The notes beneath the pieces are model-generated. The model was given only the letters and a program-made list of their open reading frames with translations. It made no database searches and was not told where the DNA came from. A DNA stretch of 64,000 nt from Clostridia bacterium (GTDB taxonomy: Bacteria; Bacillota; Clostridia; Christensenellales; CAG-138), in contig JAFRUN010000044.1 of NCBI GenBank assembly GCA_017438865.1, forward strand, positions 19,903-83,902, in the 5' to 3' direction. The position numbers were made by a program, and so were the translations under genes. The first letter of the stretch is position 1. Every line of letters starts with the position of its first letter. Of this stretch, positions 1 through 38,320 are shown piece after piece.

Positions 1-884
1 AGCTGGCGGTTCGTGGCGCTCGAAAGCTCCTGCAGGTTTTTCGCCTGCTCCAGAAGGTCCTCGCTCTTATAGCGGACCTCGGGGTTCTCCTTCTGGATCG
101 TTCCGTTCAGGATCTCCTCGGCTTTTCTGCCCGCCGCCGTCATGGAATCGGTGTCCACGGCGCGGATCACGAGCGAGCGCGGCTCGTCGTAGCGGAACAG
201 CACCGGCCAGGTGGAGAACGGGATCAGCACCTTTCCGCCGGTCGACTGGTTATAGGTGAAGTATTCGTCGAGCGTGCTCACCGTGGGACGAAAGTCCGAC
301 GCGCGCGTGAACTCGCCGATCACGATGTACGGCTCGCCGCAGATGTCGATGGATTCGCCGACCGGATTCGCGCCGGAGAACAGCGCGGCGGAGACGGTCT
401 CGTCGATCATCGCGACCTTGCGGAAGCGGTCGCTGTCGCTGTCCGTAAAGCCGCGTCCGATGCGCACGGTGTAGCCGTACACGGAAAGATACGAGCTGTC
501 CACGCCGTAGACCGTGCCGGCGCTCAGCGCTTTGCCGCCGCTGCGGATCTGTCCGTAGGCGTCGCGCTGCGCGTAATACGCCGCGGACGCGACCGCAGGC
601 ACGGCGCGGATCTCTTCAAGCGTGTCGTTCGTCAGCGGCGGGATGTAGTCCGGCGGCGTGCTCCATGCGCTCTCGAACGGATAATCGCCCTGATACAGGC
701 GAACGGTCACGACGTTCGAGCCGGAGCCGACCAGGTTCTGCTTGATCTGCTCGTTCGTGCCCATGATCGTGGAGGAGATCGCAATGATGCTCGCGATGCC
801 GATGATGATGCCGAGCATCGTCAGCGCGCTTCTCAGTTTGTGGGAGCGAATGCCGTCGAAGGCCTCGCGGAAGTTTTCCAGCAT
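1..884 (-). CDS. MacB-like ABC transporter permease (C-terminus beyond window)
   Basis: This is the N-terminal ~294 residues of a MacB/FtsX-type permease. The protein begins MLENFREAFDGI, and its first transmembrane helix contains LTMLGIIIGIASIIAIS, the typical first helix of MacB-type exporters. A large extracytoplasmic MacB core domain follows, with residues such as GYTVRIGRGF and DRFRKVAMIDETV. The C-terminal three helices lie outside the window. An AAGGAGG site 7 bases upstream supports the start. It is the fourth gene of a minus-strand operon (adaptor, ATPase, adaptor, permease), so it should form the membrane channel of a tripartite-like exporter adapted to a single-membrane cell. The substrate cannot be deduced. 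The gene inherits the SAM-riboswitch control at the head of the operon. Confidence 0.93.
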   Translation of the reverse strand, partial: MLENFREAFDGIRSHKLRSALTMLGIIIGIASIIAISSTIMGTNEQIKQNLVGSGSNVVTVRLYQGDYPFESAWSTPPDYIPPLTNDTLEEIRAVPAVASAAYYAQRDAYGQIRSGGKALSAGTVYGVDSSYLSVYGYTVRIGRGFTDSDSDRFRKVAMIDETVSAALFSGANPVGESIDICGEPYIVIGEFTRASDFRPTVSTLDEYFTYNQSTGGKVLIPFSTWPVLFRYDEPRSLVIRAVDTDSMTAAGRKAEEILNGTIQKENPEVRYKSEDLLEQAKNLQELSSATNRQ

Positions 885-896
885 ATCGCGCCCTCC

Positions 897-2735
897 TTAC
901 CAGCCGTAGTAGAAGCCGCCCTTCGCGTCCTCGACCGGACTGCCTTCTTTGCAGTTCTTGTCGTAGGGGAACGCGATGCGGTCCTCGGGGGTGATCGGCA
1001 TGCCGATGAGCTCCACATATTCGTTCATGCGGCTGCCGGTCTTTACGACGCGTTTCTCGAGCGCGTCGCCGTTTGCGACGAACACGCAGGTCTCGCCGTC
1101 GATCTCGCGTAAAAACGCCTCGTGCAGATAGATCGTGCCCTGCTCATAGAGCGAGGAGAAGTTCGAGAACTCGATATACTCGCCGATGCCGGGAACGACG
1201 CCCCCCGTGACGTCGAGCACCAGAAGGTAGCCGGAAGAGTTCGGGTTGCCGCTGCCGGAGTAGTTCGTGCTGACCGGCATCGTGCCGACCTTGCTGACGC
1301 ATGCGGTCACGTTTTTCTGCAGCTGATAGGAGAAGCCGGAAAGCTCGGTCCCGACCGGATATTCGGAAAGCTCGTCTTCGCCGACGAGTACGCTGATGTG
1401 CAGCCCCGAGCCGCCGCGGATCTCCACAAGGATATCGCCGTTTGCGGCCTCATCCGGCTGCTTCACCTGCATGACCGTGCCGTTGACCTCGGAGAACAGG
1501 ATGCCGTCCAGACCGCTGCGCTGCGCCTTTTCGATGTCGAGCACAAGCTGGCGGTAGCGAAGCTCATCCTCGCGGATGCCGTTCGCGATCTCGTTGGCGT
1601 ACGCCTCGCGCTGCGCCTTCGTCATACCGCCGCCTCCGCCGTAATACGGCGTGGGCGTGGGCTTCGGCGTTGCGGTCTCACCCGGTTCAAGGGTGCCGTC
1701 CGGCGTGGGCGAAGGGGTAGGCGTCGGTGTGGGCGTCGGCGTCGGTGTGGGCGTCGGCGTGGGGGTGGGCGTGGGCGTCGGCGTAGGCGTCGGCGTCGGA
1801 GCGGGTTTTACGGAGGTGACGAACGAGAATGCACCGTCCGGCGTGAACCGGAGCTCAACCGTGAACCGTTCCGCCTTGAGCGTCACATACCAGTCGCGCA
1901 TCAGCTCCGCGGCTTTTTCGCGCTGCGATGCCAGAAACGCATTCGGAACCCTTGCGCCGGAGCCGTAGGAATAGACGATCGGATCGGACGCGCTGCCGTT
2001 GCCGCTTTTCGGATGCTCGAGATCCGCGACGCCGGCGTCGTTTTCGACCTTGACCGACAGCGTGAGTGCGCCGTCCGGCGCCGCCGAGATCAGGATCTCC
2101 GCCTCGGGCTGCACGATCCGCGCATAGACCGCCGTTCCGCGCTCCGCCGCCAGAGTGATCAGCGACTGCAGGAAAGTATCGGTCACGCGGTCGTTTGCGC
2201 CGATCTCATATACGAACGGATCGGTCTGCGAACCGCTGCCGCCGACGGCCGAATGCAGATCGGGCAGGATCCGGCCGGAAAGATCGAAGATCCTGCCGCG
2301 GCGCGGCGCCGCGGTCGGCGTGGGCGTCAGAAGCGGGTTCTCGTAATCGACGCGGGCGTATCGCCTGTACTCCGCGTACTCCGAGCGCAGCTTGTTTTCG
2401 AGCTTGATAAGCTCCAGCTTGTTTTCTTCAAAGGAGAGCTCGGCGCGCGTCGCGTCGTAGCGCAGCAGAGGATCGCCCACGGTGACGGTATCGCCGGGCT
2501 TCACAAGGATCTCCAGAACGTTGCGGTCGGCGCTTTTCAGAACGACCTGCGACGCGTCCGAAGTCACGATGCCGTAAAGGTACGTCTGGTTCGGCATATA
2601 CGACATCATCCACTGCATGGCGGGATAGACCTCGCAGGGCGGAACCTTGCGGAATTTCAGGTATGCAAAGACGCCGCCGGCAAGCAAACCGATGCAAAGA
2701 ACACAGGCAATGATGATCTTCAAAGCACGTTTCAT
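897..2735 (-). CDS. HlyD/RND-type efflux adaptor with large hairpin insert
   Basis: A 612-residue periplasmic-adaptor-family protein with an N-terminal membrane anchor at residues 7-27. The two lipoyl (barrel-sandwich) halves lie near 58-95 and 410-440, and a C-terminal beta-barrel/membrane-proximal region ends the protein. The usual alpha-hairpin between the lipoyl halves (short helices near 98-125 and 372-405) is interrupted by an insert of about 235 residues. The insert holds two related ~80-residue repeats (sharing a GSGS/GNGS-x-x-DP-x-VY pattern near 166 and 246) followed by a Thr-Pro run at 312-345 and a Gly stretch. In ordinary MacA proteins the hairpin docks onto TolC; here there is no outer membrane, so the insert may reach through the wall. 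The start overlaps the ATPase stop codon by four bases, so the two genes are probably translationally coupled. Confidence 0.9.
1701..1802 (-). repeat. Hexameric repeat encoding a (Thr-Pro)n linker
   Basis: Degenerate ACGCCC/ACACCG-type hexamers encode about 16 Thr-Pro units inside the 612-residue adaptor. It is a slippage-prone tract; the third codon positions vary, which would limit length changes. Similar Pro-Thr-rich linkers occur in the LRR lipoprotein, the PIG-L protein and the VanW protein of this window. Confidence 0.9.
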
Positions 2736-3409
2736 ATGCGGTCGCCTCCCGAAAGAACGCCGTCATAGATGTGCAGCATGCGCTTTGCGCGTTCCGCGAC
2801 GGCGTGTTCGTGCGTGATCATGATGATCGACATCCCGCGCGCGTGGAGCGCGTCGAAGATGTCCATGATCTGCTGACCGGACTTCGAATCCAGCGCGCCG
2901 GTCGGTTCGTCGGCAAGCAGCAGCTTCGGCCGCGTGCAGATCGCCCGCGCGATCGCCACGCGCTGGCATTGTCCGCCGGAAAGCTGCGTGGGATAGAAGT
3001 TCATGCGGTCCTTGAGCCCGACCTCCAGAAGCGCCTGTTCCGCGCGTTCGCGGCGTTCGCGCTTCGGCACGTCGCCGTACATCAGCGGCAGAGCGACGTT
3101 TTCCCATGCGCGGCGGCGCTGCAGAAGATGGAACGACTGAAACACGAACCCGATCTTTTCGTTGCGGATACGCGCCATCTTGGTGTCGGACGCGCGGCTG
3201 TTGTCGACGTCCTCGAAGTAATAGGTGCCCTTTGTGGGCGTATCGAGATACCCGAGAATGTTCATCAGCGTCGACTTGCCGGAGCCGGACGGGCCCATGA
3301 TCGCGTAGTATTCGCCTTCGTGCATGGCAAAATTGACGTCGTGCAGCACCGGAACGGGATGATCGGCGGTGCCGTATGTTTTTTCGATGTGTTCGAGACG
3401 GATCAGCAT
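2732..3409 (-). CDS. MacB/LolD-type ABC transporter ATP-binding protein
   Basis: A 225-residue ATPase subunit with Walker [10 protein letters not shown], a Q-loop in [10 protein letters not shown], the signature LSGGQ (followed by [10 protein letters not shown]), Walker [14 protein letters not shown] and the H-loop histidine in IIMITHEH. These are diagnostic of the MacB/LolD family, in which ATPase and permease work with an adaptor protein. The start at [13 protein letters not shown] is preferred over longer upstream possibilities because it has a GGAGG site 8 bases upstream and follows the previous stop by one base. The ATPase is a separate polypeptide, whereas Proteobacterial MacB is fused; separate subunits are usual in Firmicutes. 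Confidence 0.96.
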
Positions 3410-3410
3410 A

Positions 3411-4757
3411 TCATCCTCCGAACGCGGGATCGACGCTGAACGAAACGATGTCTTCGCCGTCCTCGCCGAAGTCGATAAAACCGGACGGCTTGTCGGGCAC
3501 GACGCTGTCAAAGCCGAAGGATTCGTCGATTTCAAATCCGGCCGGTTCTTCGACGGGGAGCATACCGTTTTCGGCAGGATCCGCGAACATCGTCTCCGTT
3601 GCGAGCATGCCCGCGCGCACGGTGTCGTCCGGGAACGCGATGCGGTCCTTCAGCGTCAGTCCGCCGACGATCTCATAGCATTCGGTCTCTTCGGAATACG
3701 CGCCGACGGTCACGCGGCGCTTTTCCATGCGTCCGTTCGCGTCCGCCGCCCACACGAAGAAGCCGCCGTCCTCTTCGATCAGAAACGCCGCGGGCAGCAT
3801 CAGCGCGGAGCTTTCGGATTCGTCGGTGTTCAGGTCGATCAGCACATGCTGACCGATCAGCAGCCCTTCGATGCTCTCCGGTTCCACATAAAACGCATAC
3901 TTGCTGGCGCGTTCGCCGCCGTCGTAATAGATGCCCGCCTGCGATTCACCCGACGTCGATTCGGTATCGACGCGATAGATCGTGCCGCGGTAAACGGTGT
4001 CGTCCACGCGCGAGCGGATGAGCACCGGCATGCCCGGGAACAGCGTGTAGATCGTCTGCTCGTTCACGGTGCCCTTCACACAGAACGCCGTGCCCGCGAT
4101 GATCGTGATGTAGGCGCTGCTGCCGCTGCCGGAATAGCCGAACGGATCGCTCGAGCCGGAATCGTCGCGCACGGAGCGCACCGTCCCCGTAACGGGGGAG
4201 AAGACCGTGCTCGCGTCGATCAGCTCCTGCATTTCCTCCGCCTTGCGCTGTTTGTCCGCAAGCTCGTATTCGCCCTTGCGAATGTCCAGCTCGACGGTCT
4301 GAATGTCGAGCTCAATCCCGTAGCGGTCCTTTTCCTTCGCCTTTTCGAGCCGTTTTTTGAGCGAGGCGAGCTGACTGCGGTTGGTCCGCAGCTTGTTTTC
4401 GATGCCGGTGATGTCGATCAGGATCTGCGCGTGCGACAGCTTCAGATCGTCCACGTCGTAACGGAACAGCGGATCGCCTTCGTTCACCTTGCTGCCGGCG
4501 GTCACGAAGCATTCCTTGACGGTCATGTCGGCGGACGGATTGACATCGATGACGTCCTTTGCCTCCACGATGCCGTTGTACTGCGCGTAAAGACCGACGG
4601 TTCCCATGCCGGTGACCGCCGCCACGGACTGCACATACGCCGTGCCTTCGTCGCCGCCGTTTCTGCGCTGATAGAAGTAGTAAACGCCGCCGCCCAGCAA
4701 GGTCAGCACCAGTAGGATCACGATGATCCGTACCCAACCTCTGCGTTTCTTTTTCAT
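3411..4757 (-). CDS. HlyD/RND-type efflux adaptor (first gene of operon)
   Basis: A 448-residue adaptor. It has a basic N-terminus followed by one membrane helix (about residues 8-28), a lipoyl half with an LFRYD motif, a long helical hairpin (about 110-190, rich in K, E and L), a second lipoyl half and beta-barrel domains. Unlike its paralogue two genes downstream, it has a normal, uninterrupted hairpin. The start MKKKRRGWVRI is the first Met after the riboswitch terminator and is preceded by GAGGTG. Two different adaptors around one ATPase suggests a hetero-oligomeric adaptor or two alternative complexes. Expression should depend on read-through of the SAM-responsive terminator just upstream. 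Confidence 0.92.
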   Translation of the reverse strand: MKKKRRGWVRIIVILLVLTLLGGGVYYFYQRRNGGDEGTAYVQSVAAVTGMGTVGLYAQYNGIVEAKDVIDVNPSADMTVKECFVTAGSKVNEGDPLFRYDVDDLKLSHAQILIDITGIENKLRTNRSQLASLKKRLEKAKEKDRYGIELDIQTVELDIRKGEYELADKQRKAEEMQELIDASTVFSPVTGTVRSVRDDSGSSDPFGYSGSGSSAYITIIAGTAFCVKGTVNEQTIYTLFPGMPVLIRSRVDDTVYRGTIYRVDTESTSGESQAGIYYDGGERASKYAFYVEPESIEGLLIGQHVLIDLNTDESESSALMLPAAFLIEEDGGFFVWAADANGRMEKRRVTVGAYSEETECYEIVGGLTLKDRIAFPDDTVRAGMLATETMFADPAENGMLPVEEPAGFEIDESFGFDSVVPDKPSGFIDFGEDGEDIVSFSVDPAFGG

Positions 4758-4847
4758 AGGACACCTCGATTCAGACTCTCTTTTCATAATACCGCGCGGC
4801 GAGCGGTTTCGTCGCGGCGCTTTAAAATATATTTCTTCCCGCCGGAA

Positions 4848-4877
4848 GAAAAAAGTCCCGATCGCATTGACCGGGAC
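4848..4877 (-). terminator. Intrinsic terminator of the SAM riboswitch leader
   Basis: On the minus strand GTCCCG...CGGGAC forms a GC-rich stem directly followed by six Ts. It lies between the aptamer and the first adaptor gene, with no gene in between. The 5' arm of the terminator contains CGGTCA (complement of 4868-4873), which is exactly complementary to TGACCG inside the aptamer (complement of 4936-4941), so an antiterminator is possible. That pairing is inferred, not tested. Confidence 0.9.
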
Positions 4878-4891
4878 GGTATTTTTTGACA

Positions 4892-4973
4892 TGCCATCGT
4901 CAAGCATTAGCACCTTACTGAGGCAGGTTGCTGTGCGGTCACGGAGCTTGTCTCTCGCGCACTCTGGATGGCA
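4892..4973 (-). ncRNA. SAM-clan riboswitch aptamer (SAM-I core, no P4; SAM-I/IV-like)
   Basis: Read on the minus strand, a 7-bp P1 helix (TGCCATC/GATGGCA) encloses the conserved core elements: CCAGAG, GAGAGAC, the GTGC/GCAC P2 helix, AGCAACC, GGTGCTAA and TTGACGA. These match the S-box consensus (AGAG, GAGGGA, GCAACC, GGTGCTAA, TGA-GA). The usual P4 hairpin between GGTGCTAA and the 3' P1 strand is missing, which makes the aptamer only about 82 nt and recalls the SAM-I/IV variant group. Transcription would start at about 4972, just at P1. The riboswitch is followed by an intrinsic terminator and then by the efflux operon. Confidence 0.92.
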
Positions 4974-4978
4974 TACCG

Positions 4979-5007
4979 AGTATAACGCCGTACATCGGAA
5001 AATGCAA
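4979..5007 (-). promoter_or_regulatory. Promoter of the riboswitch-efflux operon
   Basis: Minus-strand TTGCAT, 17-base spacer, TATACT. The -10 box ends about 7 bases before the first P1 base of the aptamer, which fits a transcript start at the aptamer's 5' end. Confidence 0.8.
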
Positions 5008-5211
5008 ACGAAATATGAATATTTTTCGTGGATTTTACATTCAAAAACCCGAAAAATCATGCAGAACCGGCGCATAACGGGGTATACACCGTTTGCAGGA
5101 ATATACAGGATCAGGCGGAATATTCAGCCGCGCCGCGCTCTTTCGACACACGGATCCGCAGTGTGACGCCTGCATAACACGTTTCCTTCCGGGGGACAGA
5201 AACGTCGCTCC
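5008..5211. other. Intergenic, no gene recognised
   Basis: This AT-richer stretch lies between the riboswitch promoter and the LRR gene stop. Neither strand holds an open frame with a plausible ribosome binding site, and I see no clear terminator for the LRR gene. Confidence 0.6.
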
Positions 5212-38194: not shown

Positions 38195-38209
38195 CAAGGT
38201 CAAAGCGGC
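38185..38209 (+). other. Hairpin containing the rsmG stop codon
   Basis: An 11-bp perfect stem with a three-base loop. No T tract follows, so termination is doubtful; it could protect the mRNA 3' end. Confidence 0.6.
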
Positions 38210-38210
38210 A

Positions 38211-38320
38211 GTGATATCCGCGCTGCGCGTGGGCGATATCTGCTGCGCAGGTGATATCCGCTTCGCGGGTGATATATTCCCTGCGGGAATGTTCAGGAGG
38301 ATTCTCCTGCCGGAGAATCA
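38211..38320. repeat. Tandem array of short variable hairpins with GATATC boxes
   Basis: GATAT(C/A) boxes start at 38213, 38235, 38253 and 38271 (spacing 22, 18, 18). Each is followed by a small hairpin whose stem differs but still pairs, around a TGC or TTC loop: CCGCGC-TGC-GCGTGG (38218-38232), CTGC-TGC-GCAG (38240-38250), CCGC-TTC-GCGG (38258-38268) and ATTCCC-TGC-GGGAAT (38276-38290). A fifth, GATTCTCC-TGCC-GGAGAATC, is at 38300-38319. No coding frame spans it. The conserved loops and GATATC boxes with changing, still complementary stems suggest a structured repeat family. Confidence 0.8.

Follow-up and report, generated by a model that had tools for sequence, protein, structure and literature searches.

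Does a SAM riboswitch that lies in front of an efflux operon control that operon, or are the two only neighbours? The question arises from a locus in the window (the whole stretch of DNA analysed here, 64,000 nucleotides), where an RNA designated class B directly precedes the genes of a MacAB-like pump, and where a sequence-only reading had concluded that high SAM should switch the pump off. The window belongs to a draft genome estimated to be 79.5% complete, which was analysed together with 120 relatives, likewise represented by drafts; 82 of these 121 genomes have an RF00162 match at E <= 0.001. The RNA and its signals comprise the following features:

4979 to 5008, minus strand: predicted promoter of the SAM RNA, TTTGCA-18-TATACT, 9 of 12 matches to the consensus
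4891 to 4974, minus strand: 84-nt aptamer of a SAM-I riboswitch that lacks P4 (class B), matching RF00162 and kept in 17 species
4946 to 4950, minus strand: 5' strand of pseudoknot PK-1, CAAGC, in and beside the P2b loop, complementary to GCTTG at 4905-4901
4915 to 4925, minus strand: apical segment of P3, TGCCTCAGTAA, which hardly varies and is for the most part unpaired when the aptamer is folded
4901 to 4905, minus strand: 3' strand of PK-1, GCTTG, complementary to CAAGC at 4946-4950
4849 to 4877, minus strand: predicted intrinsic terminator GTCCCGGTC-AATGC-GATCGGGAC TTTTTT, a hairpin at 4877-4855 followed by six T

The covariance search with RF00162 (SAM-I) that had been recommended gave 60.1 bits, well above the cut-off of 44.4, with an E-value of 2e-11 over 64 kb. 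The SAM-clan aptamer described from the letters was thereby recovered, and so were its core motifs CCAGAG and AGCAACC, the promoter at 5008-4979 and the terminator hairpin; only its dimensions changed, from 82 nt with a 7-bp P1 to 84 nt with an 8-bp P1 in the Rfam match. In the covariance-model alignment, P2 is divided into P2a and P2b. The PK-1 pairing is altered on both sides between classes: the two listed metK leaders have CGGG/CCCG, and three distant leaders have AGCC/GGCT. The P4 helix is absent from class B, the gap between PK-1 and P1 being just 2-4 nt in all 17 RNAs. The missing P4, correctly noticed earlier, had been taken to place the aptamer near the SAM-I/IV group. According to the available part of the source, SAM-I/IV RNAs possess P4 but lack PK-1, and their P2 is undivided; SAM-IV RNAs are without P4 (PMC6890682). 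Since the RF01725 (SAM-I/IV) model found no match at E <= 0.001 in the genome that carries the window (G000), P2 is split, PK-1 is present and P4 is absent, membership in SAM-I/IV was rejected, and the aptamer is a true SAM-I riboswitch aptamer that lacks P4. Judging from the conserved core sequence, the class B RNA probably binds SAM. P4-less SAM-I aptamers were also seen before metK in G026 (L039:1501-1586, plus strand) and in G092, which suggests that P4 is not essential to SAM-I.

The same genome contains two further RF00162 matches, class A with 83 bits before metK and class C with 52 bits before a gene that, by reading, resembles N-formylglutamate amidohydrolase. Class C (L006:10345-10434, minus strand; homologs L056-L063 and L065) is a P4-less SAM-I RNA with a strong antiterminator, and its downstream gene encodes either the amidohydrolase-like protein or, in L059, L061 and L065, a protein of about 100 aa starting with MRTI, an unusual target. 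Eight IMG/VR contigs (L092-L099) carry a class C-like P4-less SAM leader, followed in five of the eight by an ORF of about 100 aa starting with MRTI, suggesting that this protein represents a mobile-element gene family under SAM control. Elsewhere in the window, a Gut-1 RNA (RF01706) was detected at 38209-38280 (plus strand) with 50.1 bits, barely above the cut-off of 50.

The promoter scan around the SAM RNA found one site, with 0.6 expected by shuffling; a similar site lies ahead of all 17 homologous RNAs, with variants including TTGCCT, TTGCTT and TATATT. Transcription should start at about the 5' strand of P1. The terminator follows 11-15 nt past P1 in 17 of 17 class B RNAs. Both signals that a short, separately terminated transcript of the SreA kind would need, promoter and terminator, are predicted and conserved. 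A second, weaker terminator-like hairpin lies directly after the first in the window (4832-4851, minus strand); most relatives, inspected by eye, have no clear counterpart of it.

The pump genes and the element that precedes them are as follows:

4786 to 4815, minus strand: P2, a promoter-like sequence, GCGACG...GGTATTAT, ahead of the pump and between the terminator and the adaptor
3411 to 4757, minus strand: adaptor 1, 448 aa, RND/HlyD-type membrane fusion protein; TIGR01730 53.7 bits, below the cut-off of 94.9
2732 to 3409, minus strand: ABC ATPase of MacB/LolD type, 225 aa; PF00005 121 bits, best NCBIfam match MacB with 235.6 bits (full-length cut-off 966)
897 to 2735, minus strand: adaptor 2, 612 aa, with a long central Pro-Thr repeat; TIGR01843 26.5 bits, weak
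1 to 884, minus strand: N-terminal part of a MacB-type permease, 417 aa in all; NCBIfam MacB 173.6 bits, running beyond the window to contig C37:19536

Starting from the ATG at 4757, the order is adaptor 1, ATPase, adaptor 2 and permease, as had been stated for a MacAB-like pump beside the aptamer. By its profile matches the operon is a predicted MacAB-like exporter: MacB is the best NCBIfam match for the ATPase and the permease, below the equivalog cut-off, and the adaptors match weakly. Adaptor 1 has no Pfam match at E 0.001; its orthologs are found with 50-89% identity in 17 further genomes of the genus and as fragments in G002. The N-terminal part of adaptor 2 resembles adaptor 1 (33% over 126 aa). 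Its Pro-Thr repeat lies at about 1685-1820 of the window (minus strand), and tblastn alignments stop near the repeat in several relatives. A MacAB-like efflux pump of Gram-positives, Spr0693-0695 (PMC5768738), has, as far as the accessible part of that report goes, the same set of an adaptor, a separate ATPase and a MacB-type permease, whereas the pump in the window has two divergent adaptors that score below curated cut-offs. The interval 3411-5007, under which the earlier observation was listed, extends from the promoter to adaptor 1 only; the ATPase, adaptor 2 and permease lie at lower coordinates and leave the window. The adaptor had also been said to follow the terminator with nothing in between. 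This is correct as regards genes, but the promoter-like element P2 occupies 4815-4786.

P2 corresponds to a second conserved block of the alignment about 60 nt ahead of the adaptor ATG, GCRACGAAA...TGTGGTATTAT. A pattern devised after the alignment was seen (GC[AG][AC]C, 16-22 nt, [GT]TAT) occurs in 18 of 22 pump leaders scanned, and 0.1-2% of shuffles match it. The matches include the pump of G010, which has no aptamer ahead of it, and the riboswitch-free pumps of G005, G020, G056 and G066; P2-like elements of G018 and G019 lie outside the scanned stretch, and the pump leaders of G013 and G036 have no match. No P2-like element was seen by eye at six unscanned pumps of other genera (G026, G034, G045, G054, G065 and G071), in several of which a coding frame runs near the adaptor. 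P2 has a poor -35 part, and its copy in the window is without the TG of an extended -10 element. No SAM riboswitch at gathering score was found in the stretches around the pumps of G005, G018, G019 and G020 and around nine pumps of other genera; the pump of G002, cut by a contig end, was left out of the P2 and riboswitch comparison. P2 thus seems to supply the pump with a promoter of its own. A tetrahydrofolate riboswitch (RF01831, 73.1 bits; L103:153-264, plus strand) was observed about 1 kb upstream of the G019 pump.

A transcriptional S-box switch requires an alternative pairing of the 3' strand of P1 with the 5' arm of the terminator. If the class B RNA were an attenuator acting in cis, high SAM would terminate transcripts from the upstream promoter, and P2 would add a SAM-independent supply of pump mRNA. 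The terminator shortly after P1 in each of the RNAs and the location of most of the RNAs directly upstream of the pump (see below) speak for this explanation. Pairing was examined in folds of transcripts ended just after the terminator loop, with terminator hairpins located by eye, for the 17 class B RNAs and 28 controls. Of the controls, 17 are metK leaders from these same species; the other 11 are class C leaders, one of which comes from G024 and ten of which come from the genus. A mean probability of at least 0.5 for pairing of the P1 3' strand with the terminator was reached in 27 of 28 controls (17/17 metK and 10/11 class C) versus 1 of 17 class B RNAs, the exception being G007 at 0.65, followed by G009 at 0.45. 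In these shortened transcripts P1 itself had a probability of at least 0.6 in nine of the 17 class B RNAs versus none of the 28 controls, for which it was at most 0.06. The other eight class B RNAs (G006, G007, G008, G009, G012, G013, G014 and G022) adopted other folds with P1 below 0.6, five of them at no more than 0.2.

Duplex energies gave a similar picture. The duplex between the P1 3' strand and the terminator arm has a class B mean of -6.2 kcal/mol within species versus -6.35 kcal/mol in the cross-species control, and the energy of P1 ranges from -7.4 to -13.6 kcal/mol; the duplex is stronger than P1, and only slightly, in two of 17 class B RNAs (G007 and G001) versus 8/8 class C leaders and the single metK leader tested. 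Folds of full-length transcripts were undiscriminating, because P1 and the terminator coexist in several metK controls as well. According to these folding models, the class B terminator is without an antiterminator conserved across species, and an expression platform mutually exclusive with P1, as expected of SAM-I, was not found for the class as a group, although G007 and G009 may differ. Moreover, the terminator arm pairs with the aptamer at 0.54-0.56 in G009, G012, G013 and G014 (in the last three with parts of the aptamer other than P1), and a species-specific switch may therefore exist there. These cases, together with the antiterminator-like pairing in G007 and, to a lesser degree, G009, are what an attenuator acting in cis can draw upon; the lack of a common antiterminator tells against it, and we consider it unlikely.

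Class B RNAs were found in 17 of 23 genomes of the genus, all above the cut-off (48.4-60.2 bits), with the class assigned by length and sequence; the P4-less metK leader of G026 was aligned but left out of the count. The exact class B pattern gave 16 matches in contigs of at least 3,000 bases from 84,980 species, a collection without the window genome, and these appear to correspond to the 16 genus genomes other than that of the window. The carriers are rumen bacteria, and several records name ruminant stomach compartments. In the metK protein tree (22 genomes, without G017), the 17 class B genomes form one clade with 100/100 support. In 13 of the 17 (the window genome, 11 others and G014), the pump follows immediately after the RNA. 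Contig C41 of G014 is closely similar to G012 in the part that follows the aptamer and might be a binning error, and a class B fragment lies at the end of C141 of the same genome; the 17 RNAs may therefore not all be independent. No overlooked gene was found between RNA and pump in the adjacent cases, in agreement with the sequence-only reading. The same leader, which it proposed to look for ahead of orthologous pumps, is present in these 13 genomes, but not ahead of the pumps of G005, G010, G018, G019 and G020.

The four remaining carriers separate the RNA from the pump. In G010 the pump (C2:6337, minus strand) has P2 and no aptamer, and the RNA lies 2.8 kb away in the opposite orientation (C2:9096, plus strand) with an NTPase pair between them, an arrangement that would result from an inversion with a breakpoint between the terminator and P2. 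G006 (97% complete), G015 (95%) and G008 (74%) have no match to adaptor 1 at E <= 0.001 or to the permease at E <= 1e-100, and nevertheless keep the promoter, aptamer and terminator of the RNA at the same site, after the NTPase and small-gene pair. The RNA of G008 is followed by an HTH gene and pepF, which in the window genome come after the permease. At L004:9347-11430 (minus strand), a small HTH-like protein (named by reading) and the oligoendopeptidase PepF (601.5 bits) were observed after the permease. The upstream neighbour of the RNA also varies: at the G004 locus another gene stands in that position, as is the case in the window. On the metK tree the pump-less label needs three changes, with the reservation that forks within the clade are weak and that the starred branches force only one. 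Persistence of the unit where the pump is missing, and away from the pump in G010, is a further point against an attenuator acting in cis. Since no antiterminator is conserved, the pump has P2 and the RNA is kept without the pump or apart from it, the earlier claim that the aptamer and SAM switch the pump off is unsupported.

In three of these genomes, G010, G006 and G015, the first large ORF beyond the RNA has a convergent orientation, as it would if the riboswitch acted as an antisense RNA on a convergent gene. SAM riboswitches of this type are known, such as that of ubiG-mccBA in Clostridium acetobutylicum, described in the consulted excerpt of PMC9943018, which likewise does not occupy the usual 5' leader position. 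However, the convergent ORFs differ, being spmB-like in G010 and two unlike proteins in G006 and G015 (names by reading), and in the remaining 14 genomes the gene after the RNA points the same way as the RNA. Antisense control was rejected in the absence of a shared convergent target in G006, G010 and G015 comparable to ubiG-mccBA, and is highly improbable.

The class B RNA could also be a decaying riboswitch relic that lost its gene, or a mere promoter and terminator insulator, with no SAM-dependent function. An origin from a rearranged metK leader is conceivable, since in G005 and G019 (L119 and L120 being the loci concerned) metK and its riboswitch are preceded by the NTPase that in other species stands ahead of the class B RNA, and the metK locus has therefore been rearranged in the genus. 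However, the sequence of class B resembles class C, not the metK leader. Conservation also argues against decay. The mean pairwise identity among the 17 species is 49.3% at -180 to -61, 65.4% at -60 to -41, 67.7% at -40 to -1, 90.1% in the aptamer, 53.7% in the linker and terminator and 31.2% at +43 to +120; the core is invariant and the promoter and terminator are present in 17 of 17. The whole-aptamer identity is no higher than that of the metK leaders (95.7%, 17 species) and of class C (91.5%, nine species). Covariation is hardly seen in class B and is uninformative, because the stems scarcely vary.

Two variants of the P3 apical loop occur in the 17 class B RNAs versus eight in the 17 metK leaders of the same species and nine in ten class C leaders of the genus. 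By reading, most metK and class C leaders close this loop by complementary tips, whereas that of class B is mostly open, and the P3 loop may be constrained by something besides SAM binding. A hairpin between the P3 loop and the P1 3' strand seemed promising in some species, but its energies lie between -5.7 and -13.7 kcal/mol and do not regularly surpass those of P1; it is therefore offered only as one possible switch. In genome-wide searches of seven genomes, the 12-nt sequence complementary to the P3 loop had no occurrence outside the RNA, and in eight genomes pairing of the loop with pump gene starts was not consistently better than for shuffled seeds. The best single pairings were with one adaptor and one ATPase start, for which 12 and 17 of 200 shuffles were equally good. 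These null results and the uncoupled expression platform are what a relic or insulator would predict; given the conservation of the aptamer and its signals, we regard this explanation as quite improbable.

The explanation we favour, with some reservation, is that the class B unit forms an autonomous gene for a small RNA rather than simply a leader of the pump, having its own promoter, a product of about 126 nt, SAM-independent termination and an action in trans. Its promoter would yield an RNA consisting of the P4-less SAM-I aptamer with the terminator immediately after it; as competition between the terminator hairpin and P1 is not a conserved feature, transcription should stop with or without SAM. 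Binding of SAM should stabilise P1, P3 and PK-1 and, by conjecture, could decide which strand is exposed, the P3 loop or a strand of P1. The RNA may then act in trans on a partner, either by RNA pairing or through a protein. On this view the pump is a neighbour that uses a separate promoter, P2, with read-through or indirect control possible. What the computations show is the identity of the aptamer, its predicted promoter and terminator, the lack of a conserved antiterminator, the P2-like element that also precedes some pumps without the RNA, and the persistence of the RNA where the pump was not found or lies elsewhere; expression of the RNA, SAM binding and action in trans are inferred. In its fuller form, which we put forward only tentatively, the proposal is that a SAM-I aptamer, having lost its expression platform, has become a dedicated SAM-sensing small RNA, in which SAM exposes or hides the P3 loop or the P1 5' strand and which regulates partners elsewhere, the pump being a neighbour or one of several targets and not regulated in cis. 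Points against autonomy are the adjacency of 13 of the 17 RNAs to the pump, P1 below 0.6 in eight of the 17, the duplexes exceeding P1 in G007 and G001, and the pairing of the terminator arm with the aptamer in G009, G012, G013 and G014. The weak -35 part of P2, the six pumps of other genera that show no such element by eye, and the searches for a trans target that found none tell against it as well.

What sets class B apart from known SAM RNAs is that neither its cis coupling nor its neighbour is constant among the species that carry it. It shares with SAM-I (S-box, RF00162) the core, P1, P2a/P2b, P3, PK-1 and a score above the gathering threshold, and departs from it in the absence of P4, of a conserved coupling between P1 and the terminator, and of a bond to one downstream gene. 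The nearest parallels are found in regulatory RNAs covered by the available portion of PMC8079631. SreA and SreB of Listeria monocytogenes are terminated SAM riboswitches that act in trans; SreA, whose trans target is the prfA mRNA, in addition switches a transporter operon in cis. A free small RNA that arises by termination of a SAM riboswitch transcript is common to them and, by prediction, to class B, which, unlike SreA as portrayed there, has no conserved cis coupling and yielded no target in the searches made. Rli55 and AspocR, noncoding RNAs under the control of a B12 riboswitch whose ligand chooses between a short and a long RNA, are described in the same portion of PMC8079631; they similarly contain a riboswitch aptamer within a noncoding transcript, whereas termination of class B appears ligand-independent. 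Among the top matches listed for the open-access literature, none was seen to describe a free-standing SAM-I RNA that is uncoupled from any gene in cis.

Annotation of riboswitches presumes that an aptamer governs the gene downstream of it. Relatives that lost or moved the pump provide a natural test of this presumption, in which the aptamer stays. The checks applied here, namely antiterminator pairing against controls, a second promoter and the fate of the RNA after gene loss, can be used on any riboswitch collection. If confirmed, the class B RNA would be a SAM-sensing RNA without a gene in cis, and it would follow that "riboswitch-controlled exporter" assignments can err where the terminator has no antiterminator.
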